Assembly: GCA_017645645.1 (NCBI GenBank)
Contig: JAGCOB010000022.1
Span: 1 to 64,000 of the forward strand
Reading direction: 5' to 3'
DNA from: Prevotella sp.
GTDB lineage: Bacteria > Bacteroidota > Bacteroidia > Bacteroidales > Bacteroidaceae
DNA length: 64,000 bases
Made by a program: the position numbers and the translations under genes. Below are positions 1 through 61,895 of the stretch, piece after piece. Position 1 is the stretch's first letter. Every line of letters begins with the position of its first letter. Below the pieces are notes generated by a model. It saw nothing but the letters and a program-made list of their open reading frames with translations, had not been told where the DNA came from and did not search any database.

Positions 1-21
1 ATTAGGAATTAGGAATTATTT
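1..21. repeat. Degenerate heptamer repeat at the window edge
   Basis: Two copies of the heptamer ATTAGGA followed by a diverged third unit; the array may extend to the left beyond the window. It belongs to the 7-bp-period repeats described across this window. Confidence 0.6.
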
Positions 22-33
22 GTGCGAACACAA
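20..33. promoter_or_regulatory. TTGTG-CGAA-CACAA dyad upstream of upp
   Basis: A 5-bp inverted repeat around CGAA, about 75 bases upstream of the upp -7 box. The core TGTGCGAACACA recurs at 63084-63095, the only other place I noticed it. It could be a regulator site; no function is known. Confidence 0.3.
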
Positions 34-107
34 CCTTTTTTAGGTTAAAGTATTTAAAAATCACATGGTCTTTCAACTTTTTGTAACGCGGAGTTGACAA
101 AACTTTG

Positions 108-115
108 TATCTTTG
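108..115 (+). promoter_or_regulatory. -7 box of the upp promoter
   Basis: TATCTTTG matches the Bacteroidota sigma factor -7 consensus TAnnTTTG. A TTTG at 80-83 is a possible -33 box, but the 24-base spacing is longer than usual. The box rules out the in-frame TTG at 113 as the upp start. Confidence 0.75.
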
Positions 116-139
116 TCATCAGAACTTAAAACAAGAATA

Positions 140-832
140 ATGGAAGTAATCGATTTTAGCAAAACCAACTCCATCATCAACCAATACATGTCGGAGTTAC
201 GTGACAAGAATTTCCAGAAGAATCGCCTGGTGTTCCGCCATAACATCAAGCGCATCGGAGAGATGATGGCGTATGAGATCTCCAAGACGCTGGATTATAA
301 GTCCAAGACTATCACCACGCCGCTCGGGACTATTGATATTCCCTTGCCGAAGGACGATATGGTGATAGCTACCGTACTGCGTGCCGGACTGCCTTTCCAC
401 GAGGGTTTCCTGAATGTGTTCGACAAGGCAGATAATGGTTTCGTATCGGCTTTCCGCATGTATATTAACCGTGAGCATACGGAGGTGGGCATCCATACCG
501 AGTATATCGCCACACAAAGTGTGAAACACAAGACACTGCTCGTCGTTGACCCTATGCTTGCCACGGGTGGCAGTCTTGCTGCAGCGATAGAGTCTTTGTT
601 ACAAACGGGCAAACCCAAGAAAATCCACCTTTGCTGTGTTATTGCCGCTCCTGAAGGTATTGAGGTCGTGAAACAGGTATTGCCGGAGGATTCTACCATC
701 TGGTGTGCCGCCGTCGACAAAGGAATGAATGAGCAGAAATACATCGTACCAGGCTTCGGCGACTGCGGCGACCTCTGCTATGGCGAGAAGTTGCAAAGTT
801 TCCGTAAGATTGCCGAGAAACATGGAAAGTAA
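140..832 (+). CDS. upp: Uracil phosphoribosyltransferase
   Basis: Makes UMP from uracil and PRPP in the cytosol (pyrimidine salvage). The PRPP-binding loop DPMLATGGS lies near residues 137-145, and the C-terminal uracil-site stretch PGFGDCGDLCYG is present. At 230 residues it is slightly longer than the usual about 210. The open frame extends to a TTG at 113, but that codon overlaps the -7 box, so the ATG at 140 is chosen. The cytidylate-kinase-like gene follows after 35 bases on the same strand, probably in the same transcript, which ends at the terminator near 1513-1540. Confidence 0.95.
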   Translation: MEVIDFSKTNSIINQYMSELRDKNFQKNRLVFRHNIKRIGEMMAYEISKTLDYKSKTITTPLGTIDIPLPKDDMVIATVLRAGLPFHEGFLNVFDKADNGFVSAFRMYINREHTEVGIHTEYIATQSVKHKTLLVVDPMLATGGSLAAAIESLLQTGKPKKIHLCCVIAAPEGIEVVKQVLPEDSTIWCAAVDKGMNEQKYIVPGFGDCGDLCYGEKLQSFRKIAEKHGK

Positions 833-867
833 GAAACAAATAATATATTTACATAAAAACGAAAACA

Positions 868-1485: not shown

Positions 1486-1512
1486 GATTATTCCACTTGG
1501 AGGAAATAAAAG

Positions 1513-1540: not shown

Positions 1541-1548
1541 TTTGGTCT

Positions 1549-2553: not shown

Positions 2554-2559
2554 AACTCT

Positions 2560-4471: not shown

Positions 4472-4479
4472 TTAATTGC

Positions 4480-4585: not shown

Positions 4586-6589
4586 TTAAAATTTCCACCT
4601 TACCTGCATATCCACTTCTGCCATGGAAGAGCCACTGATTTCTTGAAGACCACTGGAAATCCTCGCACGGTCGAAATAGTTAGTAACCCCAATCTTGGCA
4701 ATGAGCAGTAGATGTTTTCCGATGTCCGTACGGACCATCAGAGCATAACGGAGCCCTTTCCCATAGAGCATGAGGGAAGAGAAGTTATAGAGGACCGAAC
4801 GCTCATACAGGTAGAGACGACTCTCATAGTTGTCGGTATGGAAATAAGCGGCATTGGCGGAGAGTTGCAGCCATCGCCATTGGTAGGACGCCTGTTCGGA
4901 GGTCATCCATCCCCTAGCGTGTTCCCTGAAAGATACGGAGATTCCGTCGAACTGTGTCTGTAAAGAGAGTCCGAAGGTGGTGTCGTAATAAAGGCGCAGG
5001 TGTGCCCGATGTTCTATGTAATTGGAAAGCATCGTTTTTTCGGTATTATCCTTTTGACGTATATGCAACCGATAGCGACCTTCGAGCTTCCATTTGCTAT
5101 TAAATAAGGTACGCGCAGAAATCATGGTGTCAAAAGCATCACTGGGCATGCTAACCTGATAGCGCTTCCACGCGAAATGCGTATAGTCGGCATACCAGTT
5201 GATGGTATGTTTGTTAGAGGGTTGCCAGGTCAGTCCAAAATAGATACCATGCTCATTTTGTATACCGGAACCTTCCGAGAAACTTTGGGAACGAAGTGCC
5301 GTGTACCTCTTATCGTAATAGCGATGGAGTGTCATCAGAGAGAACGCAGGGCTCAATCGGTAACTGAGTTGATGGATGGTCGCCAAGGCTCCTTGACGAT
5401 TGACTGCCGTTTCTCCTGAGAAAGAGAACTTAACATTGGTATACCCGTAGTCGACACTCATGTTGAGGAAGTCCTTTCCTTCCGCAGCATAGCGACGATA
5501 GGGCGCATTCTCTTTTTGGGGAATCAATCGTCTGTCGAGACGTGTATAAAGTATATTGGCATGGGCATAGAGTGTTCCCTTGCGCCATCCTATACTTCCC
5601 CCCAGGTCTATCTCATGGGTGTTATTCTTCTTGGCCATCTCTGTCGTGGTACGATGGTAGTTGCTGTAATAGAGTGTTCGTGCAGTACTATCTTTGTTGA
5701 GGGTAGCATCCAAGGGACGATAGGAGGCAAAGGCTGTGAGTTCCCAGTTTCTGTGCAGGCGGATGGTAGTGGCTACTCCTTGTAGATATCCTTCTGTAGA
5801 GCGTGAGGAGTGAGGGCGGAGTATAGCTGTTGAACGTCCCATAGATTGCAAGGTGGCAAGTTTTCCGAGATAGAAGCCACCATTGATAATCAGTCCCATT
5901 CCGAGTTGTACACGATACATGCCCAGACAGAGATTCTGTATTCGTCCCACATCTTTTATTTGCAGGTAATAGGAATAATGGTCATAGCCCCATCGGTTCT
6001 GGTTGGCGAAGAAAGGCTCACCTGGATCCTGCGCTCCTGTCACTCCGAACTTCACACAATCGTGGTAATTGAACTGATAACGGAAAGTATGGCGATACCG
6101 CTGTCCCAGATAGTCGCTATCATCACCTTTCCGGGTATATAGAGGTATCTTTCCTGTCAGCAATAGTTGTTGCTTACCATGGCGTATCACAGAATCCAAT
6201 CGGAGTCTGTTGTCTTTGAATGCTGACTCTCCCACATAAGTGAAATACATGAGCAATTGTCGTCGTTCTGTGTCGAATGCCGTCAGCATCTGCAACTCTC
6301 CAAAGGAGCGTATCGGTCCATAGCGATCGGTGTATTCCAACAGTTGCTCTACTTGCTGTGCCGTGAGGAAGGGCAACTGTTCCAGTTCCTCCCTGGTGGC
6401 TTGATTCAAATTGATTGGTTGTTCTACTCTCTCCGACAGGATGTCGTAAAGCTCCTCCAACGAGGAAGATTCCATGTTCTCTGCCTCCACCCATTGGCGA
6501 AAAGCCTCCTCCCATTGATTGGTTGTTTGAGAAAACCCTGTCAGGGAGAACAATGAGATAAATACTAATAGTGTCTGTCTAAAATCCAT
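4586..6589 (-). CDS. Exported helix-hairpin-helix protein with beta-rich C-terminus
   Basis: 667 residues with a signal peptide (about 1-20, ending GFSQ) and a ComEA-like helix-hairpin-helix segment at about residues 57-105 (INLNQATREELEQLPFL, then YGPIRSFGELQML). The remaining about 550 residues are rich in alternating aromatic and polar residues and end in KF, which suggests an outer-membrane beta barrel (inference). ComEA-type domains bind DNA non-specifically; whether this one does is unknown. The -7 box ends 4 bases before the ATG, so the message may be leaderless. It is transcribed alone and ends at the 4480-4530 hairpin. Confidence 0.75.
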   Translation of the reverse strand: MDFRQTLLVFISLFSLTGFSQTTNQWEEAFRQWVEAENMESSSLEELYDILSERVEQPINLNQATREELEQLPFLTAQQVEQLLEYTDRYGPIRSFGELQMLTAFDTERRQLLMYFTYVGESAFKDNRLRLDSVIRHGKQQLLLTGKIPLYTRKGDDSDYLGQRYRHTFRYQFNYHDCVKFGVTGAQDPGEPFFANQNRWGYDHYSYYLQIKDVGRIQNLCLGMYRVQLGMGLIINGGFYLGKLATLQSMGRSTAILRPHSSRSTEGYLQGVATTIRLHRNWELTAFASYRPLDATLNKDSTARTLYYSNYHRTTTEMAKKNNTHEIDLGGSIGWRKGTLYAHANILYTRLDRRLIPQKENAPYRRYAAEGKDFLNMSVDYGYTNVKFSFSGETAVNRQGALATIHQLSYRLSPAFSLMTLHRYYDKRYTALRSQSFSEGSGIQNEHGIYFGLTWQPSNKHTINWYADYTHFAWKRYQVSMPSDAFDTMISARTLFNSKWKLEGRYRLHIRQKDNTEKTMLSNYIEHRAHLRLYYDTTFGLSLQTQFDGISVSFREHARGWMTSEQASYQWRWLQLSANAAYFHTDNYESRLYLYERSVLYNFSSLMLYGKGLRYALMVRTDIGKHLLLIAKIGVTNYFDRARISSGLQEISGSSMAEVDMQVRWKF

Positions 6590-6593
6590 GCTG

Positions 6594-6601
6594 CAAAGTT
6601 A
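6594..6601 (-). promoter_or_regulatory. -7 box immediately before the HhH start codon
   Basis: TAACTTTG read on the minus strand, followed by only 4 bases before the ATG. This places the RNA start at or next to the start codon. No convincing -33 box is seen. Confidence 0.5.
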
Positions 6602-6691
6602 CAAACAATGAATAAAAATGATTATCACATTTGAACTCAATGCATTCAAATTTGTTACATGAAAATGCTCTATATGCAAAAAAGCACAAAA

Positions 6692-11831: not shown

Positions 11832-11859
11832 AATTATGTTATAAAATCGTAAATCGTAC

Positions 11860-13602: not shown

Positions 13603-14196
13603 ATGGATAAGAATCAACAATTTGTCATCACGATCAATCGTGAACTAGGCTCCGGCGGACATACCGTTGGCAGAAAACTCGCCGAGAGACTTCAAGTAAA
13701 GTATTATGATAAACCCCTCGTTGAAGGGGTGACAGAGAAGTTCGGCCTCTCCCTTGAGGAGATAGAACGGCTAAAGGCACAGGAGAAAGAGTCGTGGTGG
13801 GACACGCTGAAGGGAAAGCCCACCACGGCAGCAATGTTTGAGACAGAGCGTAAGATCCTGCAGGGACTTGCCGAGGAGGGGTCGTGCGTCATCGCAGGAC
13901 GTAGTGCCTTCCTGATCTTCCGGGAGTGGAAGAACCATCTGCATGTATTCATCCAGGCATCAAGGGCAAAACGCATCGAACGGCTGCAGAAGAAGGGCAT
14001 GACGATGGCTGCGGCAATGGACACCATTGACGAGGTGGATGCCGGCAGAGAGACTTATCTCCAGAAATATTCGGACAAGTCACGCTATGACACCCGTCAT
14101 TACGACCTGGTGATCATGATGGACGAACTGACGGAGGATGATGCTGCCGATATCATCATGGAGTTTATCGACCGTACCACTAAGAATCATCAATGA
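13603..14196 (+). CDS. Cytidylate kinase-like protein (paralogue 2)
   Basis: 197 residues, homologous over its length to the protein at 868-1485 but without the about 10-residue insertion near residue 70. Shared marks are FVITINRELGSGGHTVGRKL, CVIAGRSAFLIF and SRYDTRHYDLVI. It lies between a nucleoside kinase (8 bases upstream) and the TPR/AraC regulator, whose ATG overlaps its stop codon. The context suggests UMP/CMP phosphorylation in salvage (inference). Confidence 0.85.
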   Translation: MDKNQQFVITINRELGSGGHTVGRKLAERLQVKYYDKPLVEGVTEKFGLSLEEIERLKAQEKESWWDTLKGKPTTAAMFETERKILQGLAEEGSCVIAGRSAFLIFREWKNHLHVFIQASRAKRIERLQKKGMTMAAAMDTIDEVDAGRETYLQKYSDKSRYDTRHYDLVIMMDELTEDDAADIIMEFIDRTTKNHQ

Positions 14197-21310: not shown

Positions 21311-21370
21311 CAAAGATACGAAGAAAATTGAAAATTGAAAGTTGAAAATTGAAAATTAATTGTATCTTTG
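21311..21370. promoter_or_regulatory. Divergent promoters with a heptamer array between them
   Basis: TATCTTTG on the minus strand (21318-21311, for the GtrA-like gene) and on the plus strand (21363-21370, for the deacetylase gene). The -33 regions of both fall inside the heptamer array 21323-21357. Confidence 0.75.
21323..21357. repeat. Heptamer array (GAAARTT)5
   Basis: Five consecutive 7-bp units, four GAAAATT and one GAAAGTT, exactly between the divergent -7 boxes of the GtrA-like gene and the deacetylase gene. Confidence 0.9.
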
Positions 21371-21387: not shown

Positions 21388-22170
21388 ATGATTCTGCTAA
21401 GTTTCGACACGGAGGAGTTTGACGTGCCTCGCGAACACGGGGTGGTGTTCTCGTTGGAGGAAGGGATGAAAGTCTCTGTTGAGGGGACTAACCGTATTTT
21501 GGACGTACTGAAAGAGAATGGCGTAAAGGCGACCTTCTTCTGTACGGGCAATTTTGCGGAGAACGCCCCAGCGGTGATGCAGCGCATCATGGACGAGGGA
21601 CATGAGATAGCGTGTCACGGGGTGGACCACTGGCAACCCCAAGAAACGGACTTCGAACGCTCGAAAGAGATCGTGGAGCGTGTATGCGGACGGAAGGTCT
21701 ATGGCTATCGCCAGCCTCGTATGTTTCCTGTGAGCGATAGCGAGATAGCACGGGTGGGCTACACCTATAACTCTTCTTTGAATCCTGCATTCATCCCCGG
21801 GCGTTATATGCATCTGACAGCCCCACGTACCTGGTTTATGAAGGGTGATGTGATGCAGATTCCTGCCTCGGTGAGTCCCTGGATTCGTTTCCCGCTGTTC
21901 TGGCTCTCCCTGCATAACCTGCCAGAAGGGTTATACCACTGGCTGGTTCGTCGCACCCTGAAGCACGACGGCTATTTCGTCACTTATTTCCATCCGTGGG
22001 AGTTCTACGACCTGAAGGAGCACCCTGAGTTCAAGATGCCGTTTATCATCAAGAACCATAGCGGCAGGGAGATGATGCAACGGCTGGACAGCCTCATCAA
22101 GATGCTTAAAGAAAAGGGGAATAAGTTTGGCACCTTCACGGAATTCGTAACGCTACACACTAAACACTAA
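21388..22170 (+). CDS. Polysaccharide deacetylase family protein
   Basis: 260 residues of the NodB-homology fold. Visible metal/catalytic motifs: FDTEEFD near 5-11, TFFCTGNF, GHEIACHGVDHW (metal histidines) and FHPWEF near the C-terminus. It removes an N-linked acyl group from a sugar; the exact substrate is unknown. The frame extends to a TTG at 21349, but the -7 box at 21363-21370 lies downstream of that, so the ATG at 21388 is chosen. A GT2 gene follows after 13 bases. ArnD-type deformylases are in the same superfamily, which is relevant to the neighbouring operon. Confidence 0.85.
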   Translation: MILLSFDTEEFDVPREHGVVFSLEEGMKVSVEGTNRILDVLKENGVKATFFCTGNFAENAPAVMQRIMDEGHEIACHGVDHWQPQETDFERSKEIVERVCGRKVYGYRQPRMFPVSDSEIARVGYTYNSSLNPAFIPGRYMHLTAPRTWFMKGDVMQIPASVSPWIRFPLFWLSLHNLPEGLYHWLVRRTLKHDGYFVTYFHPWEFYDLKEHPEFKMPFIIKNHSGREMMQRLDSLIKMLKEKGNKFGTFTEFVTLHTKH

Positions 22171-22178
22171 ACGCTACA
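22151..22178. repeat. Heptamer array across a stop-to-start junction
   Basis: Four 7-bp units in mirror order (CGCTACA, CACTAAA twice, CGCTACA). They contain the deacetylase stop codon and end just before the GT2 start at 22184. Confidence 0.8.
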
Positions 22179-25654: not shown

Positions 25655-26761
25655 ATGAAGTTAACCGTTGGTTTTGACGCGAAGCGCATTGTTCGTAACG
25701 GGACTGGGTTAGGAAGCTACGGAAGGACACTGGTGAACGACCTCATTAGACAGGGGGATGACGACATCGCCCTGCACCTCTATGTCCCCGACAAAGGACG
25801 CGACGATCTCCGCCACCAAATCCTCGACGGTGCCACCTTCTGCTACCCAACAGCCAACTGCCAACTGCTAACCGCTATTTGGCGCACCCACGGTATCGTC
25901 AAAGACCTTCAGAAAGATGGTATACAGGTCTATCACGGTCTCTCTGGCGAACTCCCTATAGGACTTAAGAAGGCAGGCATCAAAGGTGTCGTCACCATCC
26001 ACGACCTTATCTTCATGCGCCACCCGGAATACTACCATTGGATAGATACGAAGATCTACGAATGGAAGTTCCGTCAGACTGTCAAGGAGGCAGACCGTAT
26101 CATTGCCATCAGTGAGCGCACCAAACAGGACATCATGGAGTTAGGGGGAGTTAGCGAAGACAAGATAACGGTCATTTATCAGAGTTATGCGCCCCGATTC
26201 TCCGAAAAACCGTCTCCAGAACAAGTGGCGGCAATATGTGAACGTTATCAGTTGCCTGAACGTTTCATCCTGAACGTAGGAACTATCGAGCAACGGAAGA
26301 ACCTACGACTGGTTGTGGATGCTCTGAACGACTTGCCAGAGGACATCCATTTGGTTGCCGTAGGACGACAGACGAAATATGCGGCACAACTGCCTAAGAA
26401 TCCTCGTGTCCATCTGTTGAGTGGTGTCAACGATGAGGCCTTGACTGCTATTTACAGTTTAGCCGAGGTCTTTGTCTATCCCTCCCGTTATGAGGGTTTC
26501 GGCATTCCCATCATCGAAGCGATTGCAGCAGGGCTCCCTGTGGTGGCATGTACAGGTTCTTGTCTAGAAGAGGCTGGCGGACCAGCCAGTATGTATGTAG
26601 ATCCGGATGATGCCAAAGGAATGGCATCTGCCGTCCTGTCGATGCTCAAGGGAAACACAGACCGAGAGCAGCGTATCCGTCAAAGTCAACAATATATCGA
26701 GCGTTTCAAGGGCACTGATGTAGCAGGACAGGTGTTGGAAGTGTATCGCTCATTATTATAA
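25655..26761 (+). CDS. Glycosyltransferase family 1/4 (GT-B)
   Basis: 368 residues with a GT-B fold: an N-terminal acceptor half and a C-terminal nucleotide-sugar half with the motif PSRYEGFGIPIIEAIAAGLP. The frame extends to 25571, but the promoter boxes place the start at 25655 (MKLTVGFDAKR). A heptamer repeat array (25847-25881) lies inside the coding sequence at residues 65-76 in the N-terminal domain. The sugar and acceptor are unknown. The LtaS-like gene follows after 15 bases. Confidence 0.85.
   Translation: MKLTVGFDAKRIVRNGTGLGSYGRTLVNDLIRQGDDDIALHLYVPDKGRDDLRHQILDGATFCYPTANCQLLTAIWRTHGIVKDLQKDGIQVYHGLSGELPIGLKKAGIKGVVTIHDLIFMRHPEYYHWIDTKIYEWKFRQTVKEADRIIAISERTKQDIMELGGVSEDKITVIYQSYAPRFSEKPSPEQVAAICERYQLPERFILNVGTIEQRKNLRLVVDALNDLPEDIHLVAVGRQTKYAAQLPKNPRVHLLSGVNDEALTAIYSLAEVFVYPSRYEGFGIPIIEAIAAGLPVVACTGSCLEEAGGPASMYVDPDDAKGMASAVLSMLKGNTDREQRIRQSQQYIERFKGTDVAGQVLEVYRSLL
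25847..25881. repeat. In-gene heptamer array (CYAACNG type) in the GT1 gene
   Basis: Five 7-bp units (CCAACAG, CCAACTG twice, then diverged units) within the GT1 coding sequence. Confidence 0.85.
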
Positions 26762-36619: not shown

Positions 36620-37582
36620 CTTTTCCCATACTACTTCTATAGTCGCCTCGTTGGCTTCGATACCTTGAGCCACGATATCCATATCCTGAGGCAGCCATGT
36701 GGTCTTGCTGGCATAGGGCGAACAGATGACCAGCGAGGGCTTGCCCATGGCATAGACGATATGGCGCCCCCCACCCTCGTTGCCAAAATAGGCGGTGCAG
36801 TTAGCTGCCATAGCGGCGAGCTGACGAGGGCTCTTGGCCTCAATATTGAGAAAGAGAGGTGAAGGACAAGGAGCAAGAGGCAAGAGGTTAGAATATATAC
36901 GTTGGGCGTTTTCTGCCTCGCGACCAGGAGCGAAATTAAAGATGAGTTGCAACTGGGGAAAGGTCGTGATTATACGACGCAGCACTTCCGTCATACGGTC
37001 TTCTGGCCATGTTTTGTGTTCCAGCTTTGCTGTTACGCCTACCAGCATCACTGGACGACAGAAGTCGATGCCTTGTTGCTGCATATATTCCCTAAAATCA
37101 GCCTTCTCCTTTTCCGATATATAGAGCGAGAGATTTCTGTCTGTAATGGTTGGTTTCAGAGACGAGATTAACTTCAGGTTATGATCTATCATGCTCTCAT
37201 CGTCTTCACAACCCTTTATGAGGTAATTAAAAATGCCTCGGGTATAAGGCTTGCGAATACCGATGCGCCACTTGCTCCGAATCGAGAAAAGGGCAAAGAA
37301 CATGGTGTTTAAGGTAGAACGCATATCGATAATAGCATCGTAACGTGTCTGGTGAACGATATGCCATACCTTTTTAATATAAATAAAGAAAGAATGGCGC
37401 TCGTCGTCACTGAAAGTGATGATACGACTAATGGCAGGATGACCTTCGAATAAGGGTGCAATACGCTCGTTGAGCACAAAATGGATCTCCGCATCGGGGA
37501 AGCTCTTCTTCAGCGTGCTCAGCATAGAGGTGGCCAGGATGGCATCACCCATCTGTCGGAATCGTACAACGAGTATCTTCAT
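36587..37582 (-). CDS. Glycosyltransferase family 9 (heptosyltransferase-like)
   Basis: 331 residues. GT9 marks: N-terminal VVRFRQMGDAILATSML and the donor-site glycine segment NEGGGRHIVYAMGKPSLVI. GT9 enzymes add heptose or a related sugar to LPS inner core. A heptamer array (36855-36889) lies in frame near residues 232-243. It is the last gene of the miaB operon and overlaps the sugar/lipid kinase-like gene by 4 bases. Confidence 0.85.
   Translation of the reverse strand: MKILVVRFRQMGDAILATSMLSTLKKSFPDAEIHFVLNERIAPLFEGHPAISRIITFSDDERHSFFIYIKKVWHIVHQTRYDAIIDMRSTLNTMFFALFSIRSKWRIGIRKPYTRGIFNYLIKGCEDDESMIDHNLKLISSLKPTITDRNLSLYISEKEKADFREYMQQQGIDFCRPVMLVGVTAKLEHKTWPEDRMTEVLRRIITTFPQLQLIFNFAPGREAENAQRIYSNLLPLAPCPSPLFLNIEAKSPRQLAAMAANCTAYFGNEGGGRHIVYAMGKPSLVICSPYASKTTWLPQDMDIVAQGIEANEATIEVVWEKLLTFCKQLAV
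36855..36889. repeat. In-gene heptamer array (AGAGGYA type) in the GT9 gene
   Basis: Five 7-bp units read on the plus strand (AGAGGTG, AAGGACA, AGGAGCA, AGAGGCA, AGAGGTT). The unit resembles the array at 43863-43897. Confidence 0.75.
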
Positions 37583-43032: not shown

Positions 43033-43884
43033 ATGGAACTAATTAAAGACAAAGAATTTGGCGGAGAACGCCCTTTATTCACCATTCACGATACGCGACT
43101 GGAGAATATTACCATCACAGATGGTGAAAGCGGTATCAAACAATGTCAGAACATCGAGGCAAGTCACTGCCGCTTTTATGGGAAGTACCCCTGGTGGCAT
43201 GTTGACGGTGCCCTGATAGAAGACTGCTATTTCGCCTTGGATTCCCGTTCCGCCATCTGGTATACTAATGATCTGGTAATGCGTCGTTGTCGTATTGATG
43301 CTCCCAAGTTCTTCCGTGAAATGAGAAACGTCGAACTGGAGGACGTACAGATTTTAGATGCTGACGAGACGTTCTGGAAGGTCGATGGACTGAAACTGAA
43401 AAATGTCTGTCTGCATGGCGGGACGTATCCGTTCATGTTCTCGAAGAACATCTATATCGACGGACTGGAGAGTGATTCGAAATACGTATTCCAGTATTGT
43501 CAGAATGTGGAGGTGCATCATGCCAAGATCGTGACCAAAGACTCTTTCTGGGAATGCGAAAACGTGACAGTATATGATTCCGTCTTAGACGGTGAATATC
43601 TTGCATGGCACTCGAAGAACGTACGACTGGTGAACTGTCATCTGACTGGTGAGCAACTGCTTTGCTACACTGACAACCTCATTTTGGAAAACTGTACAAT
43701 CGACAAGGCCTGTGACCGTATGTTTGAGTATTCCACTGTGAAGGCGGATATCCGCGGACATATTGAAAACATCAAGAATCCTACCAGTGGACATATTGTT
43801 GCGGACAGCATCGGTTCGATTACCATTGACGAAAACGTACGACAACCGAATGACTGTATGATAGAGGTGAGAGGTATGAAGTAA
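43033..43884 (+). CDS. DUF3737 family protein
   Basis: 283 residues, no signal peptide. Repeating short strands with the form ...NV-x-L-x-D-x-x-I (for example MRNVELEDVQILDADETFW) suggest a right-handed beta helix. It matches the DUF3737 family as I know it; function unknown. The stop codon and the start of the next gene lie inside a heptamer array (43863-43897). Confidence 0.8.
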   Translation: MELIKDKEFGGERPLFTIHDTRLENITITDGESGIKQCQNIEASHCRFYGKYPWWHVDGALIEDCYFALDSRSAIWYTNDLVMRRCRIDAPKFFREMRNVELEDVQILDADETFWKVDGLKLKNVCLHGGTYPFMFSKNIYIDGLESDSKYVFQYCQNVEVHHAKIVTKDSFWECENVTVYDSVLDGEYLAWHSKNVRLVNCHLTGEQLLCYTDNLILENCTIDKACDRMFEYSTVKADIRGHIENIKNPTSGHIVADSIGSITIDENVRQPNDCMIEVRGMK

Positions 43885-43897
43885 GAGGTATGAAATA
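43863..43897. repeat. Heptamer array spanning the DUF3737 stop and the MalY start
   Basis: Five 7-bp units (AGAGGTG, AGAGGTA, TGAAGTA, AGAGGTA, TGAAATA), which also read as a 14-bp duplication. The stop TAA (43882-43884) and the ATG at 43890 lie within it. Confidence 0.9.
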
Positions 43898-45045: not shown

Positions 45046-46938
45046 ATGAAGAAAAATGAAGTAAACACATGGTCAGTGACCTGGGGTGTACTGATGGCAG
45101 TACTCTTCTCTGCGGCTGCTGCCTATTTAGGTTTGAAAGTAGGACAAGTATTTGAAGCAGCCATTCCCATTGCCATCATTGCGGTTGGTGTCTCTGCCGC
45201 AGCCAAGCGCTCCAACGCCCTACGTGAGAATGTCATTATCCAGAGTATTGGTGCCTGTTCCGGTGCCGTGGTGGCTGGAGCCATCTTCACCCTGCCTGCC
45301 ATCTATATCTTACAGGCAAAATATCCTGAGATGTCTGCCGACTTCCTAAAAATCTTTATCGCCTCGTTGTTAGGCGGTGTCCTTGGCATCCTGTTCCTCA
45401 TCCCCTTCCGAAAGTATTTTGTGGAGGCACCCCAGGAGCAATTCCCCTTCCCAGAGGCGACGGCAACGACACAGGTATTGAAGAGTGGCGACAATGCAAA
45501 CGGTTCGTCACAGGCCAAGCCTTTACTCTTTGCCGGTCTTATCGGTGGACTCTATGACTTTATCGTAGCCACCTTCGGCTGGTGGAACGAGAATGTCACC
45601 AGCCGAATGATTCCCTATGGCGAGGATCTTGCAGAAAAGGCGAAGCTGGTGTTCAAAAACAATACAGGTGCGGCTGTCTTGGGTTTAGGTTATATCGTCG
45701 GTTTCCGCTATGCCCTTATCATTACCCTCGGCTCGCTGTTTGTCTGGTGGTTGTTCGTCCCAGCAATGGCATTTATCTTCCCTGACACTGTTCTTAACCA
45801 GTGGAACCCTGCCATTGATACGGCGGTAGGTGCTATGTCACCAGAGCAGATATTCACGTCGTATGGCAAGTCGATAGGTATTGGAGCCATTGCTATGGCA
45901 GGAATCATCGGTATCATTAAGTCGTGGAGTGTTATCAAGAGTGCGATAGGACTGGCTGCAAAGGCTGGGGAAAGCCAACAGTCAACAGCTAATGGGCAAA
46001 AACCAATAGCTACCGACCTGCCTTTCAAATTCATCGCCATTGCTTCCGTCGTCACCATCATCATCATCTTCCTCTTTTTCTGGTTCGGGGTGATGAATGG
46101 TAATCTGCTATTTGCTGCTGTCGCTATCATCCTGACGGCTGTCATTGCCTTTCTGTTTACGACAGTGGCTGCCAATGCCATCGCCATTGTGGGCAGCAAC
46201 CCTGTCAGTGGTATGACACTGATGACACTGATTCTCGCCTCTGTCGTCATGGTGGCAGTAGGGCTGAAAGGGACGGGGGGCATGGTCGCTGCCCTTATTA
46301 TGGGCGGTGTAGTATGTACAGCACTCTCTATGGCAGGCTCTTTCATTACTGACCTGAAAATTGGTTATTGGACAGGGACACTTCCTAAGAAACAGGAGAC
46401 GTGGAAGTTTCTGGGAACGTTGGTGTCTGCTGCCACTGTCGGTGGTGTGATGATGCTGCTGAACGAGACCTATGGTTTTGCTTCAGGAACTCTTGCAGCC
46501 CCACAGGCGAATGCTATGGCTGCTGTTATCGACCCGTTGATGAATGGAGTAGGTGCTCCTTGGATCTTATATGCTATCGGTGCTGCTATCGCTATCATCC
46601 TGACGCTTTGTAAGGTTCCTGCCCTCGCCTTCGCTTTGGGTATGTTCATTCCTTTGGAACTCAATGTGCCGTTGGTGATTGGCGGAGCCGTCAACTGGTA
46701 TGTCACCACTCGTAGTAAAGACGAAACCACCAACAAAGAACGTGGTGAGAAAGGTAACCTCATCGCCTCCGGCTTTATTGCCGGCGGTGCCCTGATGGGT
46801 GTTATCAGTGCCCTGCTACGTTTTGGCGGAATCCAGTTTGACTACGCGGAATGGTGGAGCAATCCTCTGAGTGAACTGCTCTCTCTGTTAGCGTATATCC
46901 TGTTGATTATCTATTTCGTCAGGGCAACAAAGAAGTAA
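45046..46938 (+). CDS. OPT family oligopeptide transporter
   Basis: 630 residues with about 14-16 membrane helices (start [20 protein letters not shown]; conserved [11 protein letters not shown]). Members move oligopeptides or metal chelates with protons. A heptamer array (45974-46015) inserts about 14 polar residues ([11 protein letters not shown] region, about 310-324) in a cytosolic or periplasmic loop. Linkage to the MalY enzyme suggests uptake of sulphur-containing peptides (inference). Its 3' end overlaps the convergent GH95 gene by 28 bases. Confidence 0.85.
45974..46015. repeat. In-gene heptamer array (GYCAAYA type) in the OPT transporter gene
   Basis: Six 7-bp units (GCCAACA, GTCAACA, GCTAATG, GGCAAAA, ACCAATA, GCTACCG). 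The total of 42 bases keeps the reading frame. Confidence 0.85.
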
Positions 46939-50956: not shown

Positions 50957-52913
50957 ATTCTTCCTCCTCAGGACGGTCTTCTTCGATAACAAGGTTATCA
51001 ATAATAAAATTCTGACGCTCCATGGTGTTCTTACCCATATAGTAGTCGAGCAGTTTCTGTACCTGATCATTCTTTTGAAGTGTCACCTGCTCCAGACGAA
51101 TGTCGGGACCGATAAAGCCGGCAAACTCCTCTGGTGATATCTCACCAAGACCTTTGAACCTGGTAATCTCAGGATCGGGTCCTAATTCCTGTATCGCCTT
51201 CATACGCTCCTCCTCACTATAGCAATAGCGCGTGATGAAATCACTTTTGGCTTTTGGCTGTTTGCTATTAGCTATTTTCTCGTCTTCCTGTGCCAACACC
51301 TTCTTGTTCTTGACTTTCGTCCTGCGGTTACGAACACGGAACAAAGGTGTTTGTAACACATATACATGTCCTTTTTTCACGAGTTCCGGGAAGAACTGCA
51401 AAAAGAAAGTGATAATCAGCAGACGGATATGCATACCGTCATCATCAGCATCAGTAGCTACTATCACCTTATTATATCTAAGAGTGTCCAGCCCTTCCTC
51501 GATATCCAAAGCAGCCTGCAGCAAATTAAACTCCTCATTCTCATATACCACCTTCTTCGTCAGTCCATAGCAGTTCAAGGGTTTTCCTCGCAGTGAGAAT
51601 ACAGCCTGTGTATTCACGTCACGACTCTTGGTGATGCTTCCACTGGCAGAGTCACCCTCCGTAATAAAGATACTTGACTCCTCCTTACGGTCATTCTTTG
51701 CATCAGAAAAATGGATACGACAATCGCGCAGTTTACGATTATGCAGGTTAGCCTTTTTTGCACGTTCACGGGCGAGCTTTGTCACACCAGCCATTGCCTT
51801 ACGCTCACGCTCACTTTCCTTAATCTTCTGCTCCAACACCTCTACGACATCCGCATGAATATGCAAGTAGTTGTCCACCTCTTGTTTGACAAAGTCACCG
51901 ATATATTTATTGATGCTGACACCATCGGGCGACATCGTCGTAGAGCCGAGTTTGATCTTCGTCTGACTCTCAAAGATAGGTTCTTCCACATTGATGGAGA
52001 TAGCAGCAACGATTCCTGTACGGATATCCCCATATTCATACTTGTTGAAAAAGTCCTTGATAGTACGGGCTATATGCTCCTTAAAGGCACTCTGGTGTGT
52101 TCCGCCCTGAGTGGTATGCTGACCGTTGACAAAAGAGTAGTATTCCTCACCATACTGGTTGGCATGAGTAAAGGCTATCTCGATGTCCTCGCCCTGAAGA
52201 TGCACGATAGGATAGAGGGCATCATTCGTCATACGGTCTTTCAGCAGATCCTCCAGTCCATGACGGGAGAGGATACGACGACCATTATACATAATCGTCA
52301 GGCCGATATTCAAATAGGTATAGTTACGGAGCATGTTCTCCACTATCTCGTCATGGAACTGGTAGTTCTGGAACTTCGTATTGTCTGGTTCGAAATAGAT
52401 ATAGGTACCGTTCTCGTCCTGCGAAGGCTCTGTTACATCACTAATAAGTTCACCACACTCAAAGACCGCCTTGCGCACCTTCCCCTCACGATAACTATGT
52501 ACTTCGAAACGACTACTCAGCGCATTGACAGCCTTCACACCGACTCCATTCAGTCCGATGGATTTCTTAAATGCCTTAGAGTCAAACTTACCACTAGTGT
52601 TCAGGATACTTACCGATTCGATGAGTTTTCCCTGTGGGATGCCTCGCCCATAGTCACGGACAGAAATACGAAGGTTGTCTTCCACCATTACCTCAATACG
52701 GTCGCCTGCCTTCATCTTGAACTCGTCTATCGAGTTGTCGAACACTTCCTTCAGCAACACATAGATACCATCCTCTGCGGAGGAACCGTCACCCAGTCTA
52801 CCGATATACATACCAGGACGCAGCCGGATATGCTGTAGTCCCGTGAGGGTTTGTATATTACCTTCGTCGTAGTTGACGACATTCTCTTCCATGATATTCT
52901 TATCTCCTGCCAT
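50949..52913 (-). CDS. parE: DNA topoisomerase IV subunit B (ParE type)
   Basis: 654 residues. GHKL ATPase motifs VFDNSIDEF and [14 protein letters not shown] motifs ITEGDSASG and DADDDGMH, and [10 protein letters not shown] at the C-terminus. With the A subunit (not in this window) it decatenates chromosomes. A heptamer array at 51244-51278 lies in the variable linker before [13 protein letters not shown]. It starts 8 bases behind the GNAT gene. Confidence 0.9.
51244..51278. repeat. In-gene heptamer array in parE
   Basis: Five 7-bp units, CTTTTGG twice then diverged. Read on the minus strand the units (CCAAAAG, CTAATAG) match the family in the GT1 and OPT genes. They code for the linker [14 protein letters not shown]. 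Confidence 0.85.
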
Positions 52914-55395: not shown

Positions 55396-55400
55396 CGTTG

Positions 55401-55480
55401 CAAAAGTACGAATAAGTAAGCGAGTTTCCAAGAAAAAGTATTTATTTATTTTGTTATTTACATACTTATTCGTACTTTTG
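55401..55480. promoter_or_regulatory. Divergent promoters in a perfect 18-bp inverted repeat
   Basis: 55401-55418 and 55463-55480 are exact reverse complements (TACTTATTCGTACTTTTG at 55463). Each half ends in the -7 box TACTTTTG of one gene (methyltransferase on the left, ABC exporter on the right). TTTG at 55450-55453, 19 bases before the right box, and CTTG (minus strand, 55432-55429), 20 bases from the left box, serve as -33 boxes. Confidence 0.75.
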
Positions 55481-57285: not shown

Positions 57286-59111
57286 GACAACCGTCATTCG
57301 GACCGCCACGCGAACGGTCACAAGCGGGTTTCCAGAAAGTAGACAAGCAGAAGCGTGCCACCCTCCTCAGGATGTTCTCCTTCGTCTTCAAACACTACAA
57401 ATGGGCTATCGTCGTGGTCCTTGCCTGTGTTCTCATCTCCTCGCTGACCTCGCTGGTGTCCTCGCTGTTTACCAAGACACTCATCGACGACTATATCGTG
57501 CCACTGACACAGGTGGACAACCCCGAATACCACTCGTTGGCACAGACCTTGTTTATCTTAGGGCTTATCCTGTTCTTCGGCACCATCTGCTCCTACACCT
57601 ACAACCGACTGATGATACATGTCAGTCAGGGTACGATGCTGCGCCTCCGCAAGACTATCTTCGAGAAGATGCAACACCTGCCCGTCAGTTACTTCGACCA
57701 GCGGTCACACGGTGATATCATGTCCGTCTATACCAACGATGTGGACTCCCTGCGTCAGATGATTTCCACGGCGATGGCACAGGTCTTCTCGTCCGTCATC
57801 ACCATCGTCGCCACCTTCACCTCCATGATTGTGCTGAGCGTTCCCCTGACGCTGGTGAGTATCCTCATGGCTGTCGTGATGATGATTGCCACCACCCAAC
57901 TCGGCAAACGTTCACGCAGTCATTTTCGTACCCAACAGCAACGCTTGGCAAGTGTCAACGGCTTCATCGAGGAGATGATGACAGGTCAGAAGGTCGTCAA
58001 GATATTCTGTCATGAACAACAGGCGCTCCGCGACTTCGAGGACATCAACGAACAACTGCGTTCCTCTGCCTATCACGCCAACCGCATCGCGAACATCGTC
58101 ATGCCCGTCAATGGGGGTATCAGCAACTTCGGCTTCGTCCTCCTCGCCACCGTCGGAGCAGCCATAGCCCTCAGTCAATGTTCAATGTTCTATGTTCAAT
58201 GTTCAATTTCTTTAGGTACCATCGTTGCGTTCTTGCAACTCAACAAAAGTTTCACCCGTCCTATCTCTCAAGTCAGCCAACAGATCAACAGCGTGCTCAA
58301 CGCCTCCGTAGGTGCCGAGCGTGTCTTCGCCTTAGGCGATGCGGAGCCAGAGGTGGACGAGGGAACCACCGAACTCACCGACCCGAAGGGTGATGTGGAC
58401 TTCACAGACGTGGACTTCGGATATATCCCTGAGAAACAGGTACTCTTCGACATCGACATCAACACCAATCCGGGACAGAAGATTGCCTTCGTGGGAGGCA
58501 CAGGTGCTGGCAAGACCACCATCATCAACCTCATCAACCGCTTCTACGAGATACAGAACGGGCGTATCCTCTACGACGGCATCCCCATCACCGACATCCG
58601 CAAAGAGTCGCTGCGTAAGGGCATGAGCATCGTCCTTCAAGAGACACACCTCTTCACGGGTACTGTCTTGGAGAATATCCGTTACGGCAAACTCGATGCC
58701 ACCGACGAGGAATGTATCAAGGCAGCTCAGTTGGTCGGTGCCGACGACTTCATCCGCCGTCTCCCCAACGGCTATCAGACACCACTCAGCGGTGACGGTG
58801 GCAATCTCAGTCAGGGCGAACGCCAGTTACTCGCTATTGCCCGCGCTGCCGTTGCCAATCCCCCTGTCCTCATCCTCGACGAGGCGACATCCAGTATCGA
58901 CACCCGTACCGAACAACTCGTACAACGGGGCATGGACACCATCATGCAGGGGCGCACCACCTTTGTCATCGCCCACCGCCTCTCCACTGTCCGTAATGCC
59001 GACCAGATCATCGTCCTCGACCACGGACACATCATCGAGCAGGGCACCCACGACCAACTCATCGCCCTCAAAGGCAAATACTATCAACTCTATACAGGAA
59101 ATACAATTTAA
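57282..59111 (+). CDS. ABC exporter subunit with active ATPase site
   Basis: 609 residues. Partner of the preceding gene (ATGA overlap). Walker A GGTGAGKTT, catalytic LILDEATSSID and switch IAHRLSTV are intact, while the signature reads NLSQGERQ, deviating from LSGGQ. This fits the degenerate composite site formed with the partner's Walker motifs. A heptamer array at 58175-58209 lies in the membrane domain (LSQCSMFYVQCSISLG), an odd place for a repeat. Confidence 0.9.
   Translation: MRQPSFGPPRERSQAGFQKVDKQKRATLLRMFSFVFKHYKWAIVVVLACVLISSLTSLVSSLFTKTLIDDYIVPLTQVDNPEYHSLAQTLFILGLILFFGTICSYTYNRLMIHVSQGTMLRLRKTIFEKMQHLPVSYFDQRSHGDIMSVYTNDVDSLRQMISTAMAQVFSSVITIVATFTSMIVLSVPLTLVSILMAVVMMIATTQLGKRSRSHFRTQQQRLASVNGFIEEMMTGQKVVKIFCHEQQALRDFEDINEQLRSSAYHANRIANIVMPVNGGISNFGFVLLATVGAAIALSQCSMFYVQCSISLGTIVAFLQLNKSFTRPISQVSQQINSVLNASVGAERVFALGDAEPEVDEGTTELTDPKGDVDFTDVDFGYIPEKQVLFDIDINTNPGQKIAFVGGTGAGKTTIINLINRFYEIQNGRILYDGIPITDIRKESLRKGMSIVLQETHLFTGTVLENIRYGKLDATDEECIKAAQLVGADDFIRRLPNGYQTPLSGDGGNLSQGERQLLAIARAAVANPPVLILDEATSSIDTRTEQLVQRGMDTIMQGRTTFVIAHRLSTVRNADQIIVLDHGHIIEQGTHDQLIALKGKYYQLYTGNTI
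58175..58209. repeat. In-gene heptamer array (TCAATGT type) in an ABC exporter gene
   Basis: Five 7-bp units: TCAATGT, TCAATGT, TCTATGT, TCAATGT, TCAATTT. On the minus strand the units resemble the GAAAATT array at 21323. Confidence 0.9.
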
Positions 59112-59115
59112 GCAA

Positions 59116-60408
59116 ATGGAACAACTATTACATTATGTATGGAAACACAAGATGTTTCCATTACAAGAACTAAGGACTACCGACGACCGTGTCGTGGAAG
59201 TAATTGACCCCGGACTGCACAATCACAATAGCGGTCCCGACTTCTTTAATGCGAAGGTGAAGATTAACCAAACACTCTGGGTTGGCAATGTAGAGATTCA
59301 CGACAAGTCGAGTGACTGGTATCAGCACGGACATGACAAAGACAAGGCTTATGACAATGTCGTCCTTCATGTCACGGGCAATGCCGATGCGGAAGTGATG
59401 AATACCCAAGGACAGTTTATCCCACAAATGTTATTGGAAGTGCCTTCGCACGTTAGGGAGAATTACGAGGAACTGCTACGTACAGACCAGTATCCACCTT
59501 GTTATCAAATCATTCCCTCACTGACAGCACTCACTGTTCACTCATGGATGGCTGCCTTGCAGACAGAACGGCTGGAACAGAAGATGGAGGCGATACGCCG
59601 TCGCGCTGAACGGATGAACGGCTCATGGGAGGATGCTTATTTCATGACCCTTGCCCGCAACTACGGTTTCGGCATCAACGGGGATGCCTTTGAGGAATGG
59701 GCAACACACATCCCTTTCTCTGCCATCGCCCATCACCGTGACGATCTTTTTCAAATTGAGGCGATCTTCTTAGGACAGGCAGGACTGTTGGATGTCGAGG
59801 CGATTCCTGAGCATTATCAGCAACAGGCACTCAACGAGGGATATTTCGCCAAACTGCGCAACGAATATTTGTATCTTGCTCATAAGTTTTCGCTACAGCC
59901 GATGGACTATAAGTTATGGAAGTTCTTACGATTGCGCCCCCAAAATTTTCCGCATATCCGTCTGGCACAACTCGCCAATCTTTACTACGAACATAAGACA
60001 GGACTCTCGCAACTGATAGCATGCAAAAATGTCTTTGCCCTACAAGACCTGATGGGCACAAAGGTGACACCTTACTGGGAGACCCATTATACTTTCGGGT
60101 CTATGAGTGACCCCAACGAGAAGAATCTCTCTCCCTTTTCCCTCAACTTGCTGATGATTAATACCTGTATCCCTATGTTCTTTGCATACGGACGACATAC
60201 GGCACAGGAAGAACTTTGTGACCGTGCCTTCGCCTTGTTAGAACAACTCAAGGCAGAGAACAACTATATCATCCGTCTCTGGAAAGAATGTGGACTGGAA
60301 GTTAAGAATGCTGGAGACTCCCAAGCATTGATACAACTGAAAAAAGAATATTGCGACAAAAAGGACTGTCTCCGTTGTCGCATCGGCTATGAATATTTAA
60401 AAAGATAA
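59116..60408 (+). CDS. DUF2851 family protein
   Basis: 430 residues. The open frame runs back to 58696 inside the ABC gene, but that part is a shadow of the ABC coding sequence; the ATG at 59116 begins 4 bases behind the ABC stop (MEQLLHYVWKHKMF). The marks I know for DUF2851 are HNHNSGPDFFNAKVKI and the C-terminal cysteine cluster YCDKKDCLRCRIGYEYL. Function unknown. Confidence 0.8.
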   Translation: MEQLLHYVWKHKMFPLQELRTTDDRVVEVIDPGLHNHNSGPDFFNAKVKINQTLWVGNVEIHDKSSDWYQHGHDKDKAYDNVVLHVTGNADAEVMNTQGQFIPQMLLEVPSHVRENYEELLRTDQYPPCYQIIPSLTALTVHSWMAALQTERLEQKMEAIRRRAERMNGSWEDAYFMTLARNYGFGINGDAFEEWATHIPFSAIAHHRDDLFQIEAIFLGQAGLLDVEAIPEHYQQQALNEGYFAKLRNEYLYLAHKFSLQPMDYKLWKFLRLRPQNFPHIRLAQLANLYYEHKTGLSQLIACKNVFALQDLMGTKVTPYWETHYTFGSMSDPNEKNLSPFSLNLLMINTCIPMFFAYGRHTAQEELCDRAFALLEQLKAENNYIIRLWKECGLEVKNAGDSQALIQLKKEYCDKKDCLRCRIGYEYLKR

Positions 60409-60411
60409 GAT

Positions 60412-60819
60412 ATGAAAAAGTACTGTTTCGAAACAAAAATGGAGGTGCGCGACTACGAATGCGACATCGAAGGAATTGTGAATAATGCCAATTACGTACA
60501 TTATTGCGAACATACACGTCATCTTTTTCTGCAACAATGCGGACTGAGTTTCGCAGAAATGCATGAGAAAGGAGTAGATGCCGTCGTGGCACGAATGAAA
60601 CTGGAATACAAAGTACCTTTGCGCCCAGACGACGAGTTCTATTCCCGTCTGTGGTTAGAGAAGCAAGGCATCAAGTATATCTTCCATCAAGACCTTTTCC
60701 GAGCATCCGATGAGGCACTGTGTTTCCGAGGGGAGATCATACTGGTATGCTTAGTGAACGGTCAACTTTCAAATAGTGAAGAGTACGACAAGGCTTTTGC
60801 CAAATATATTGAAGGATGA
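60412..60819 (+). CDS. Hotdog-fold acyl-CoA thioesterase
   Basis: 135 residues of the 4-hydroxybenzoyl-CoA thioesterase type (YbgC-like). The active-site segment reads DIEGIVNNANYVHY near residues 18-31, with Asp in the catalytic position followed by the conserved N-x-x-Y. Substrate unknown. It overlaps dprA by 4 bases. Confidence 0.85.
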   Translation: MKKYCFETKMEVRDYECDIEGIVNNANYVHYCEHTRHLFLQQCGLSFAEMHEKGVDAVVARMKLEYKVPLRPDDEFYSRLWLEKQGIKYIFHQDLFRASDEALCFRGEIILVCLVNGQLSNSEEYDKAFAKYIEG

Positions 60820-61895
60820 CAAGTGAAGAGATATACTATACCATTGCGCTGACGCGGATGACGGGCTTCAACCAGGCAATGGCTCTGCAACTGTATCAGA
60901 CATTGGGCAGTGGTAAGGCTGTTTATGAGCAACGTCAGGACTTAGGCAACTGGGACGATGCACTGCGACGGGCTGCTACTGAGATGGAGTTCATCGAGAA
61001 GAACGGTATCCAGACACTGACACTGAACGACGCAGCCTATCCCCAACGATTGAAGGAGTGTGCAGATGCACCCATCATCTTATATTATAAAGGTGTAGCA
61101 GACCTAAATAGGCAAAAGGTCATCAATATCGTGGGAACGCGACAATGTACCACTTACGGACAGGATCTTGTACGCCGCTTTGTGAGTGACCTGCGTCGTC
61201 TGTGTCCTGACGTACTGATTGTCAGTGGACTCGCCTACGGTATCGATATTTGCGCCCATCGTCAAGCATTGGCAGAAGGCTATGAGACTGTGGGAGTATT
61301 AGCACACGGACTGGACCAAATATACCCGCACCACCATCGTGACACGGCGGTGGAGATGGTGCGAAAGGGTGGATTATTGACAGAGTATATGAGTCAGACG
61401 GAGGCGCTACCTAACAACTTCCGACTGCGCAACCGTATCGTGGCAGGAATGTCGGATGCGACGATCCTCGTAGAGAGTGCATATAAGGGTGGTGGACTGA
61501 TTACCTGTCGCATTGCCCAAGAGTATGGACGTGACGTGTTTGCCTTTCCTGGTGCCGTAGGTGCGCCCTATAGCGAGGGATGCAATCGTATGATTCGCAA
61601 CAACACGGCAGCTCTCATCACATCGGCACAGGATTTCGTGGAGGCGATGGGTTGGGAAAATGGAAAGTTGAAAGTTGATAGTTTAAAGTTTAAAGAAGGA
61701 GACCTCTTTCCGGACCTCACACCAGAGGAACAAAGTATTGTAGGGTTGTTGCAAAAGACGAACGACCTGCAACTGAATATGATATCGGTACAAACGAATA
61801 TCCCTATCGGACAACTTACTGCCCTGTTGTTCTCGCTGGAGATGAAAGGGGTGGTAAGACCATTGGCAGGAGGTACGTATCATCTTTTAAATTAA
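60816..61895 (+). CDS. dprA: DNA-processing protein DprA
   Basis: 359 residues. DprA loads RecA on incoming single-stranded DNA in transformation. Rossmann-fold marks: GTRQCTTYG near 109, VSGLAYGIDICAH near 137, and FRLRNRIVAGMSDATILVES near 194. A C-terminal winged-helix part follows. A heptamer array (61655-61696) lies in the linker between the two (about residues 280-294). Coupled to the thioesterase by ATGA. Confidence 0.95.
   Translation: MTSEEIYYTIALTRMTGFNQAMALQLYQTLGSGKAVYEQRQDLGNWDDALRRAATEMEFIEKNGIQTLTLNDAAYPQRLKECADAPIILYYKGVADLNRQKVINIVGTRQCTTYGQDLVRRFVSDLRRLCPDVLIVSGLAYGIDICAHRQALAEGYETVGVLAHGLDQIYPHHHRDTAVEMVRKGGLLTEYMSQTEALPNNFRLRNRIVAGMSDATILVESAYKGGGLITCRIAQEYGRDVFAFPGAVGAPYSEGCNRMIRNNTAALITSAQDFVEAMGWENGKLKVDSLKFKEGDLFPDLTPEEQSIVGLLQKTNDLQLNMISVQTNIPIGQLTALLFSLEMKGVVRPLAGGTYHLLN
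61655..61696. repeat. In-gene heptamer array (TGAAAGT type) in dprA
   Basis: Six 7-bp units (GGAAAAT, GGAAAGT, TGAAAGT, TGATAGT, TTAAAGT, TTAAAGA). They code for the linker ENGKLKVDSLKFKEG between the DprA domains. Confidence 0.85.

Follow-up and report, generated by a model that had tools for sequence, protein, structure and literature searches.

Dispersed heptanucleotide arrays in a Prevotella genome and its relatives: one loose unit motif and a possible history of copying

How does a genome come by short tandem repeats that lie far apart and yet keep the same step of seven bases? The question is raised by a 64,000-nucleotide stretch of a Prevotella genome (positions 1-64000 of contig C22, called the window below), in which an earlier reading of the letters had noted about ten dispersed arrays of 7-bp units. 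The assembly (G000) has 2.09 Mb in 29 contigs and is 64% complete; our own-genome sample covers 756,222 bp of it, the window plus further stretches, or about 36% of the assembly. The units of the window belong largely to one family under the loose motif TTNANAR, read on either strand. Below we give the evidence for this family, follow it through related species and weigh how it may have spread.

The arrays were scored by lag-7 self-match in 60-bp segments, with 6398 segments from a fourth-order Markov model as the control. Nine of the ten places outscored every control segment, and the predicted scatter of arrays is thereby borne out; the exception is the weak run at 45974 in an OPT transporter gene, which is not significant alone. 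Tandem Repeats Finder (TRF) returned period-7 rows at seven of the ten (1, 21323, 22149, 25847, 51244, 58175, and 61663), a short piece only at 36873 and nothing at 43863 or 45974; two extra rows of 2.1 copies, at 11844 and 13137, were absent from the first list. Counting exact lag-7 runs of 8 or more, the window has 13 where 1.45 are expected. Since lags 6 (9 vs. 0.8) and 9 (8 vs. 1.0) are likewise raised, with lag 8 flat (1 vs. 0.7), seven does not stand out from the window alone. In the 756-kb sample, counted at a score of 11, there are 54 arrays of period 7, compared with 5 of period 6, 16 of period 8, 17 of period 9, and 1 of period 10, and one Markov copy of the sample, used as the control, has no period-7 array. 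The 7-bp arrays are thus real, and the enrichment of seven over six and eight is confirmed for the genome. Periods 8, 9, and 22 likewise have recurrent array families.

The original prediction had sorted the units into a few related groups. The groups are real, and they fall under a single loose motif. To see this, a consensus unit was taken from each array, with rotation and strand left free, and the likelihood of a common motif was compared with that for letter-shuffled units. In the own genome, 72 arrays fit a motif near TTNANAR (65.6 vs. 24.0 ± 3.9 shuffled). The genus was represented by two classes of stretches, 1.99 Mb unselected for repeat hits and 0.32 Mb (320 kb) selected by pattern hits; the latter are 16 stretches (L075-L079 and L116-L126), and the tests of motif, position, polarity and unit distance were rerun without them. 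The unselected 1.99 Mb gave 179 arrays and a likelihood of 119.8 vs. 47.3 ± 2.8. Sets that include hit-selected stretches gave 123 vs. 42.8 ± 2.6 (106 arrays) and 167.5 vs. 53.3 ± 1.5 (195 arrays from 19 of 22 genomes), and it is from the last set that the form TTNANAR was read. The groups noted at first belong to it or come close to it: GAAAGTT corresponds to TTGAAAG, AGAGGTA to a rotation of GTAAGAG, and CYAANAG and GAACATT to the reverse strands of TTGGCTN-like units and of TTCAATG, respectively. Scored on the motif matrix, arrays of cyanobacteria (3.33 vs. 2.21 ± 0.37 for shuffled units) and of other phyla (3.55 vs. 2.17 ± 0.48) show a moderate excess. A universal rule for bacterial heptamers is not claimed, seven published heptamers lying anywhere from the 39th to the 96th percentile of the matrix. 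A mini-hairpin inside each unit, considered by hand, was also dropped: TTGGCTG, GTAAGAG, and ATGAGAA do not pair in that way.

Not only the motif but the units themselves recur. Among the 54 own-genome arrays there are 40 pairs of identical units at unrelated loci, vs. 2.9 with letter-shuffled units (at most 12 in 1000 trials) and 1.4 with random genomic heptamers (at most 5 in 500), as expected if unit groups are common to several loci. The commonest classes are AACAGCC, AAACTCT, AAAATTG, AAAGTTG, and AAATGAG. In the own genome, substitutions within arrays are most frequent at motif positions 3 and 5 (13.1 and 12.4% vs. 4.3-8.7%; p = 4e-5). No significant effect of position is seen in the unselected genus stretches (7.1-11.0%, p = 0.06); it reaches p = 1e-16 in the pooled set, but that set includes stretches selected by a degenerate pattern. 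Compared at four positions, units are far more alike within arrays (0.77) than between them (0.39). The likeness does not decay with distance along the array, being 0.772, 0.767, and 0.82 at distances of 1, 2, and 3, and matches between adjacent units number 1326 vs. 1329 ± 7 after shuffling of the unit order, comparisons whose power is limited by the shortness of the arrays.

Neighboring arrays tend to face each other. Within 250 bp, the unselected 1.99 Mb has 12 convergent, no divergent, and 5 tandem neighbors (p = 5e-4), and the hit-selected 0.32 Mb has 9, 1, and 7, respectively; at least one convergent case is a single locus met in two sister species (L277 12206 and L279 11718). At 116 motif-selected loci, convergent cases stand to divergent ones as 35 to 9. 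There is also a direction with respect to genes. In the pooled set, the motif points away from the gene in 60 of the 76 arrays that lie at most 60 bp from a predicted gene end and toward it in 16, and arrays inside genes are antisense in 47 cases and sense in 21. Part of the bias at gene ends arises because the motif strand holds stop codons. As to placement, 106 of the pooled oriented arrays lie outside and 68 inside predicted open reading frames (ORFs) by a simple ORF caller, in a set made up of genus stretches, some of them hit-selected, and two Okeania stretches.

In some relatives the arrays are the arms or ends of larger repeats. One array class in G132 and G146 terminates in TTATGATTAC or a near form. 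Preceded by NANAR, the end RTTATGATTAC is found in 132 of the 200 genomes of the genus, with 74 copies in G146 and 66 in G132; the reversed control, valid for this end, gives at most 3 per genome, and by our own arithmetic about 0.2 are expected per genome by chance, such that single hits are expected in some genomes. A 131-bp element has at least 79 matches in G085 and at least 85 in G141 (the best 40 of 66 and the best 40 of 73 candidates scored); many cover one arm only, and six among the matches listed span at least 119 bases. In Pseudoflavonifractor, a palindromic element of about 120-130 bp, present in several copies, has (TTGACAR)4 arms that enclose two short inverted repeats. Many copies with inverted ends and a common interior are seen in G085 and G141, in G146, and in Pseudoflavonifractor.

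Two such elements lie in frame within one gene, with PG_1098 and THUMP-like domains, in both G085 and G141; this was seen in one gene only, and the gene is open throughout (539 codons in G085 and 505 in G141). At the first element site, the center is inverted between the two species, and the G141 center looks like a chimera of both. At the second site, G141 has units of 7 nt and G085 units of 8 nt, with the order of variants kept. Exchange between element copies is the simplest account of the inverted and chimeric centers and of the change of step. We considered, but gave up, the idea that the step changes from 7 to 8 across the whole genome between G141 and G085; copying from another element fits the 8-nt site better, since G141 matches 8-nt arms elsewhere too.

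In Parabacteroides acidifaciens, the arrays of five loci (L257-L260 and L262) are preceded by a common block, GCGTTTTATACAATAAGCCCCCC. Because the block is common to all five, the array there is part of a longer dispersed repeat. A 28-bp string found in four Parabacteroides loci is weak evidence for the copying of arrays, because these loci also share the upstream block.

The sites themselves mostly do not persist. In relatives that align to the window with some 66-84% identity, the same arrays were not found at the same sites throughout; most sites lacked the array or held another heptamer. At 43863, one of four relatives has a 7-bp array (G035, a similar one) and G167, G162, and G149 have none; at 45974 none of four has an array, and at 51244 one of seven does, with the same word. 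Of the 29 ParE-like linkers read from 30 loci, our own included, two carry an array, that of the window and that of G138, both with the word CCAAAAG. This array may be common to the two genomes by descent or by exchange, though closer relatives are without it. The single relative compared at the last two sites, G167, has CTCACAT/CATACAT six times at 58175 in place of the TCAATGT of the window, and at 61655 its units are of the ATGTGAG type, whereas those of the window are GAAAGTT.

Turnover is also seen over shorter distances. In five pairs of sister species of 85-95% mean identity, 17 comparisons of arrays gave 4 of equal length, 2 with a difference of 1 bp, 5 with one that is a multiple of 7, and 6 with some other difference; the multiples of 7 come from three loci and amount to 14, 21, and 42 bp. 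Of 85 random segments from sister species, 75 were equal, 1 differed by a multiple of 7, and 9 otherwise. The further suggestion of the original prediction, that copying goes by a fixed step and is perhaps related to slippage or an enzyme, was only partly sustained: some lengths do differ by whole units between sisters, but the data do not show one enzyme that copies in fixed steps of 7 nt. The evidence points as much to the copying of ready-made arrays between loci as to slippage.

The family is spread very unevenly among species. Counted as overlapping pattern matches and not as arrays, (NRNWRTT)4 ranges from 0, in 20 of 200 genus genomes, to 519, with a median of 37 and at least 100 in 55 genomes. 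(TTNANAR)4 matches in 80 of 198 genomes of the phylum and in 45 of 103 genera. In a collection of named genomes at least 116 stretches match; among the 80 titles listed, which were classed by hand, 46 are Bacteroidota, 12 are cyanobacteria, and 22 are others. It should be noted that a reversed pattern is a weak control for repeat patterns, as the reversed motif mostly matches the same arrays, and Markov controls were used instead.

Candidate engines of copying were sought by association with abundance over the 200 genus genomes, kinship being ignored. Reverse transcriptase was rejected: RVT_1 is found in 94 genomes, with median hits of 43.5 vs. 36 (p = 0.89), is absent from 18 of the 35 array-rich genomes, and is present in 11 of the 20 hit-free ones. 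No RVT_1 match was found in G000 (64% complete), G007, G008, or G028, the profile being one that may overlook distant reverse transcriptases. Y1 transposase, found in 110 genomes, does go with abundance (medians of 60.5 vs. 16 hits, p = 2e-4), yet it is not necessary. A DinB-like polymerase (PF00817, E of 1e-47 or better) is found in 111 genomes, with a median of 23 hits with it and 63 without (p = 0.015 overall); the association was dropped because p rises to 0.09 to 0.14 once the genomes are restricted by completeness. None of these three candidates explains the abundance of arrays.

Any account must cope with the period, the motif, the recurrence of units, the abundance that varies by species, the length changes at array loci, the convergent polarity, and, in some relatives, the part that arrays play as arms of dispersed inverted-repeat elements about 100-130 bp long. 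On balance we lean toward the view that the arrays are one dispersed, selfish-type heptanucleotide family with the loose motif TTNANAR, spread by copying. A ready-made array or arm would be copied into a new place, by a transposition-like event or by capture during break repair; after arrival its number of 7-nt units would rise and fall, and it would trade sequence with other copies; and it would survive where it is tolerated, in intergenic DNA, at the ends of genes, and in the linkers of proteins. The arrays of the own genome look like mostly solitary arms, and for them the element reading would hold by analogy with the relatives. Copying of ready arrays explains the recurrence of units and the common ends, not the differing words in paired arms. 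This last is one of several points that weigh against the view. The arms carry different heptamers in 13 of the 21 convergent pairs, which counts against simple copied terminal inverted repeats, because those would carry like arms. For no element copy was a transposase, a target-site duplication, or an empty site shown, and a Y1 match is missing in 9 of the 35 rich genomes and present in 5 of the 20 hit-free ones, kinship again ignored. The 17 sister comparisons count some loci from both sides, and one difference of 521 bp is probably due to a wrong anchor. Finally, the RTTATGATTAC end is absent from G000, and the 756 kb searched has one pair of neighboring arrays only, which is tandem, the inverted form not being seen; the element reading thus rests on the relatives and not on G000.

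The chief rival is replication slippage, in which polymerase slips of seven bases make heptamers grow in place, each array independently of the others. We consider it unlikely, if a serious contender. Heptanucleotides are reported to be, in most genomes, the most abundant class of long repeats, a result credited, like a polymerase-contact proposal, to Mrazek 2007 in the relevant passages of PMC4679880 and PMC4692102. Slippage would also suit the whole-unit differences between sisters, the much greater likeness of units within arrays than between them, a 21-bp higher-order repeat at L133 7196, and the lead of period 7 in loci of other phyla (motif-selected loci, with motif arrays excluded). By itself it explains the step of seven and the indels of whole units. 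It does not explain why units recur at unrelated loci, why several loci have ends in common, the polarity, or the flat likeness along the (short) arrays, and species with no hits stand beside species with hundreds. Polarity is where another possibility gains, namely that repeats are added to broken 3' ends by a stuttering polymerase or a telomerase-like enzyme before the ends are joined, a single array marking one end and a convergent pair two. Different units in the two arms, the absence of decay with distance, and the fixed step would follow from such addition, and telomerase-like synthesis does exist in bacteria, as in DRT10, whose best studied case makes 9-nt repeats (PMC12632851, in the part bearing on synthesis). 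The indifference of abundance to RVT_1, with half of the rich genomes lacking a match, tells against it, and the common ends and repeated centers suggest copied elements; we therefore regard end addition as improbable. A bolder form, less probable still, would be that an activity of Bacteroidales adds TTNANAR-type heptamers to 3' ends at chromosome breaks in a telomerase-like manner, and that the ends, once joined, remain as convergent scars, which spread afterward in the form of small inverted-repeat elements.

Selection for binding is a different kind of answer. A DNA- or RNA-binding protein would attach cooperatively to the unspaced heptads, which would serve as operators or as marks between genes. 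Operator arrays of unspaced 7-bp units are found for the omega repressor of pSM19035, and the concentration of own-genome substitutions at two motif positions and the orientation of the motif away from the nearest gene end would be in keeping with a bound site. But the position effect is lost in the unselected genus set, the direction bias comes in part from stop codons, the unit at one site differs between species, arrays sit in linkers of unrelated conserved genes, and whole species do without them, all of which makes binding very doubtful as the general explanation. Scarcely credible, finally, is chance, codon periodicity or faulty assembly. The excess of the window at lags 6, 9, 12, and 15 is of the kind that codon structure produces, but seven has no codon reason, the Markov control is devoid of period-7 arrays, and arrays are present also in the single-contig genomes G117 and G045.

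The sites of the window are collected in the table, together with the gene that holds two elements in G085 and G141. As had been claimed, they fall both between genes and within genes at linkers.

Table. Heptanucleotide arrays of the window, and the gene with two elements in two relatives.
Feature	Position	Strand	Motif form	Context	Basis
ATTAGGA x2.6 array	1..18	+	TTAGGAA	contig edge	TRF; score 11, 0 of 6398 Markov segments
GAAAATT/GAAAGTT x5 array	21323..21357	+	TTGAAAA	upstream of polysaccharide-deacetylase ORF; flanked by inverted boxes GCAAAGATAC / GTATCTTTGC	TRF, flanks, Pfam
CTACACA/CTAAACA x4 array	22149..22176	-	TTTAGTG	3' end of deacetylase ORF, right ahead of next ORF	TRF, ORF calls, Pfam
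CCAACAG/CCAACTG/CTAACCG array	25847..25877	-	TTGGCTG	within glycosyltransferase gene (Pfam Glycos_transf_1 and Glyco_transf_4); encodes PTANCQLLTA	TRF, translation, Pfam
degenerate AGAGGTG AAGGACA AGGAGCA AGAGGCA AGAGGTT	36855..36892	+		within glycosyltransferase family 9 gene (minus strand); encodes LAPCPSPL	score 11, 0 of 6398; sequence, translation, Pfam
degenerate AGAGGTG AGAGGTA TGAAGTA AGAGGTA TGAAATA	43863..43897	+		spans DUF3737 stop and start of aminotransferase gene (labeled MalY at first)	score 13, 0 of 6398; Pfam
weak CYAANAG-like run	45975..46012	-		in OPT transporter gene	score 7, 56 of 6398 controls as high; Pfam OPT
CTTTTGG/CTATTAG array	51244..51276	+	TTGGCTN	variable linker of GyrB/ParE-like gene (minus strand)	TRF
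TCAATGT x4.7 array	58175..58207	+		membrane domain of ABC exporter	TRF, Pfam
TTGAAAG/TTGATAG/TTTAAAG array	61653..61695	+		dprA, between DprA core and winged-helix domains	TRF, Pfam
gene with two elements	L281 (G085) 13891-14830; L282 (G141) 5808-6624

The AT-rich intergenic arrays of G000 adjoin CAAAGRTAC boxes (for example at window 21323; L016 8391, 10472, and 19430; L019 7603 and 16638), and in many cases another box flanks the array on its far side in inverted orientation; we take these boxes to resemble the -7 promoter element of Bacteroidetes. Other repeats occur nearby. A separate dispersed family of period 8 (CCGTAATA / CGGAATAC / ATTCCGGT) is present in L005, L010, L011, L012, L014, and L015, and a third short-repeat family, of period 9 and TCTAGAGAT / CTAGATATT type, at 41809-41841 of the window, L007 19578, and L010 985. 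Repeats of 22 bp with GTTCCA...TGGAAC palindromes lie at 54506-54592 of the window, as four copies inside the predicted ORF 54139-55431, with further copies at L003 10826 and L006 15288. Upstream of the DUF3737 ORF, a 51-bp unit stands in five tandem copies with 76% matches (window 42627-42888).

Seven is known as a favored length of bacterial repeats, and the passages of PMC4679880 and PMC4692102 that carry the polymerase-contact proposal describe no test of it. Here a single genus offers hit-rich species beside hit-free ones, a common motif, polarity, and turnover between sisters, and because of these contrasts slippage, element copying, and end addition are separable by resequencing and simple assays. 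The arrays are also a route by which conserved proteins, such as the ParE-like protein, DprA, and the ABC exporter, acquire low-complexity linkers.

In the open-access literature we found no report of a heptamer family in Prevotella or Bacteroidales, nor of a family with the TTNANAR motif, of the polarity of such arrays, or of inverted elements built from them. Heptamer repeats as such are familiar from the short tandemly repeated repetitive (STRR) sequences of cyanobacteria, including Calothrix. The nearest parallel is perhaps that of the tandem TAACTGA heptamers of marine Beggiatoaceae, cyanobacteria, and five Bacteroidetes (MacGregor 2015, PMC4679880). As described in the relevant sections of that paper, these too are short, mostly intergenic, and patchy across species, and some lie over stop codons or in ORFs, in the stop-free orientation and at protein edges. 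They differ in being one fixed word, with related words reportedly rare in the best studied genome, whereas the family of the window is a cloud of words under a loose motif, with convergent pairs and common ends. TAACTGA is not among the commonest unit classes of G000, and by its unit the present family falls outside that of TAACTGA. For the heptanucleotide repeats of the kind surveyed by Mrazek, the passages at hand in PMC4679880 and PMC4692102 describe no unit motif, polarity, or element structure. The GGGAATC repeats of Xanthomonas and the GGGGATT/GGGGACT repeats of Nostoc are likewise dispersed, heterogeneous heptamer arrays, some of them in inverted pairs and variable between close relatives (PMC4692102, in the portion on these repeats), but their words are G-rich and a poor match to the TTNANAR matrix (39th to 77th percentile when all heptamers are ranked). 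DRT10 resembles the arrays in making short tandem DNA of a set step and differs in that, in the part of PMC12632851 concerned, its product is cDNA for phage defense, whereas here there is no association with reverse transcriptase. In architecture, the elements of the relatives come closest to the Rickettsia palindromic elements (RPE) and miniature inverted-repeat transposable elements (MITEs), which are also short inverted-repeat elements found in frame inside protein genes (PMC10969869, as far as its relevant passages go). In contrast to these, the arms here are tandem arrays of 7- or 8-nt units, and at one site the step differs between sister species.

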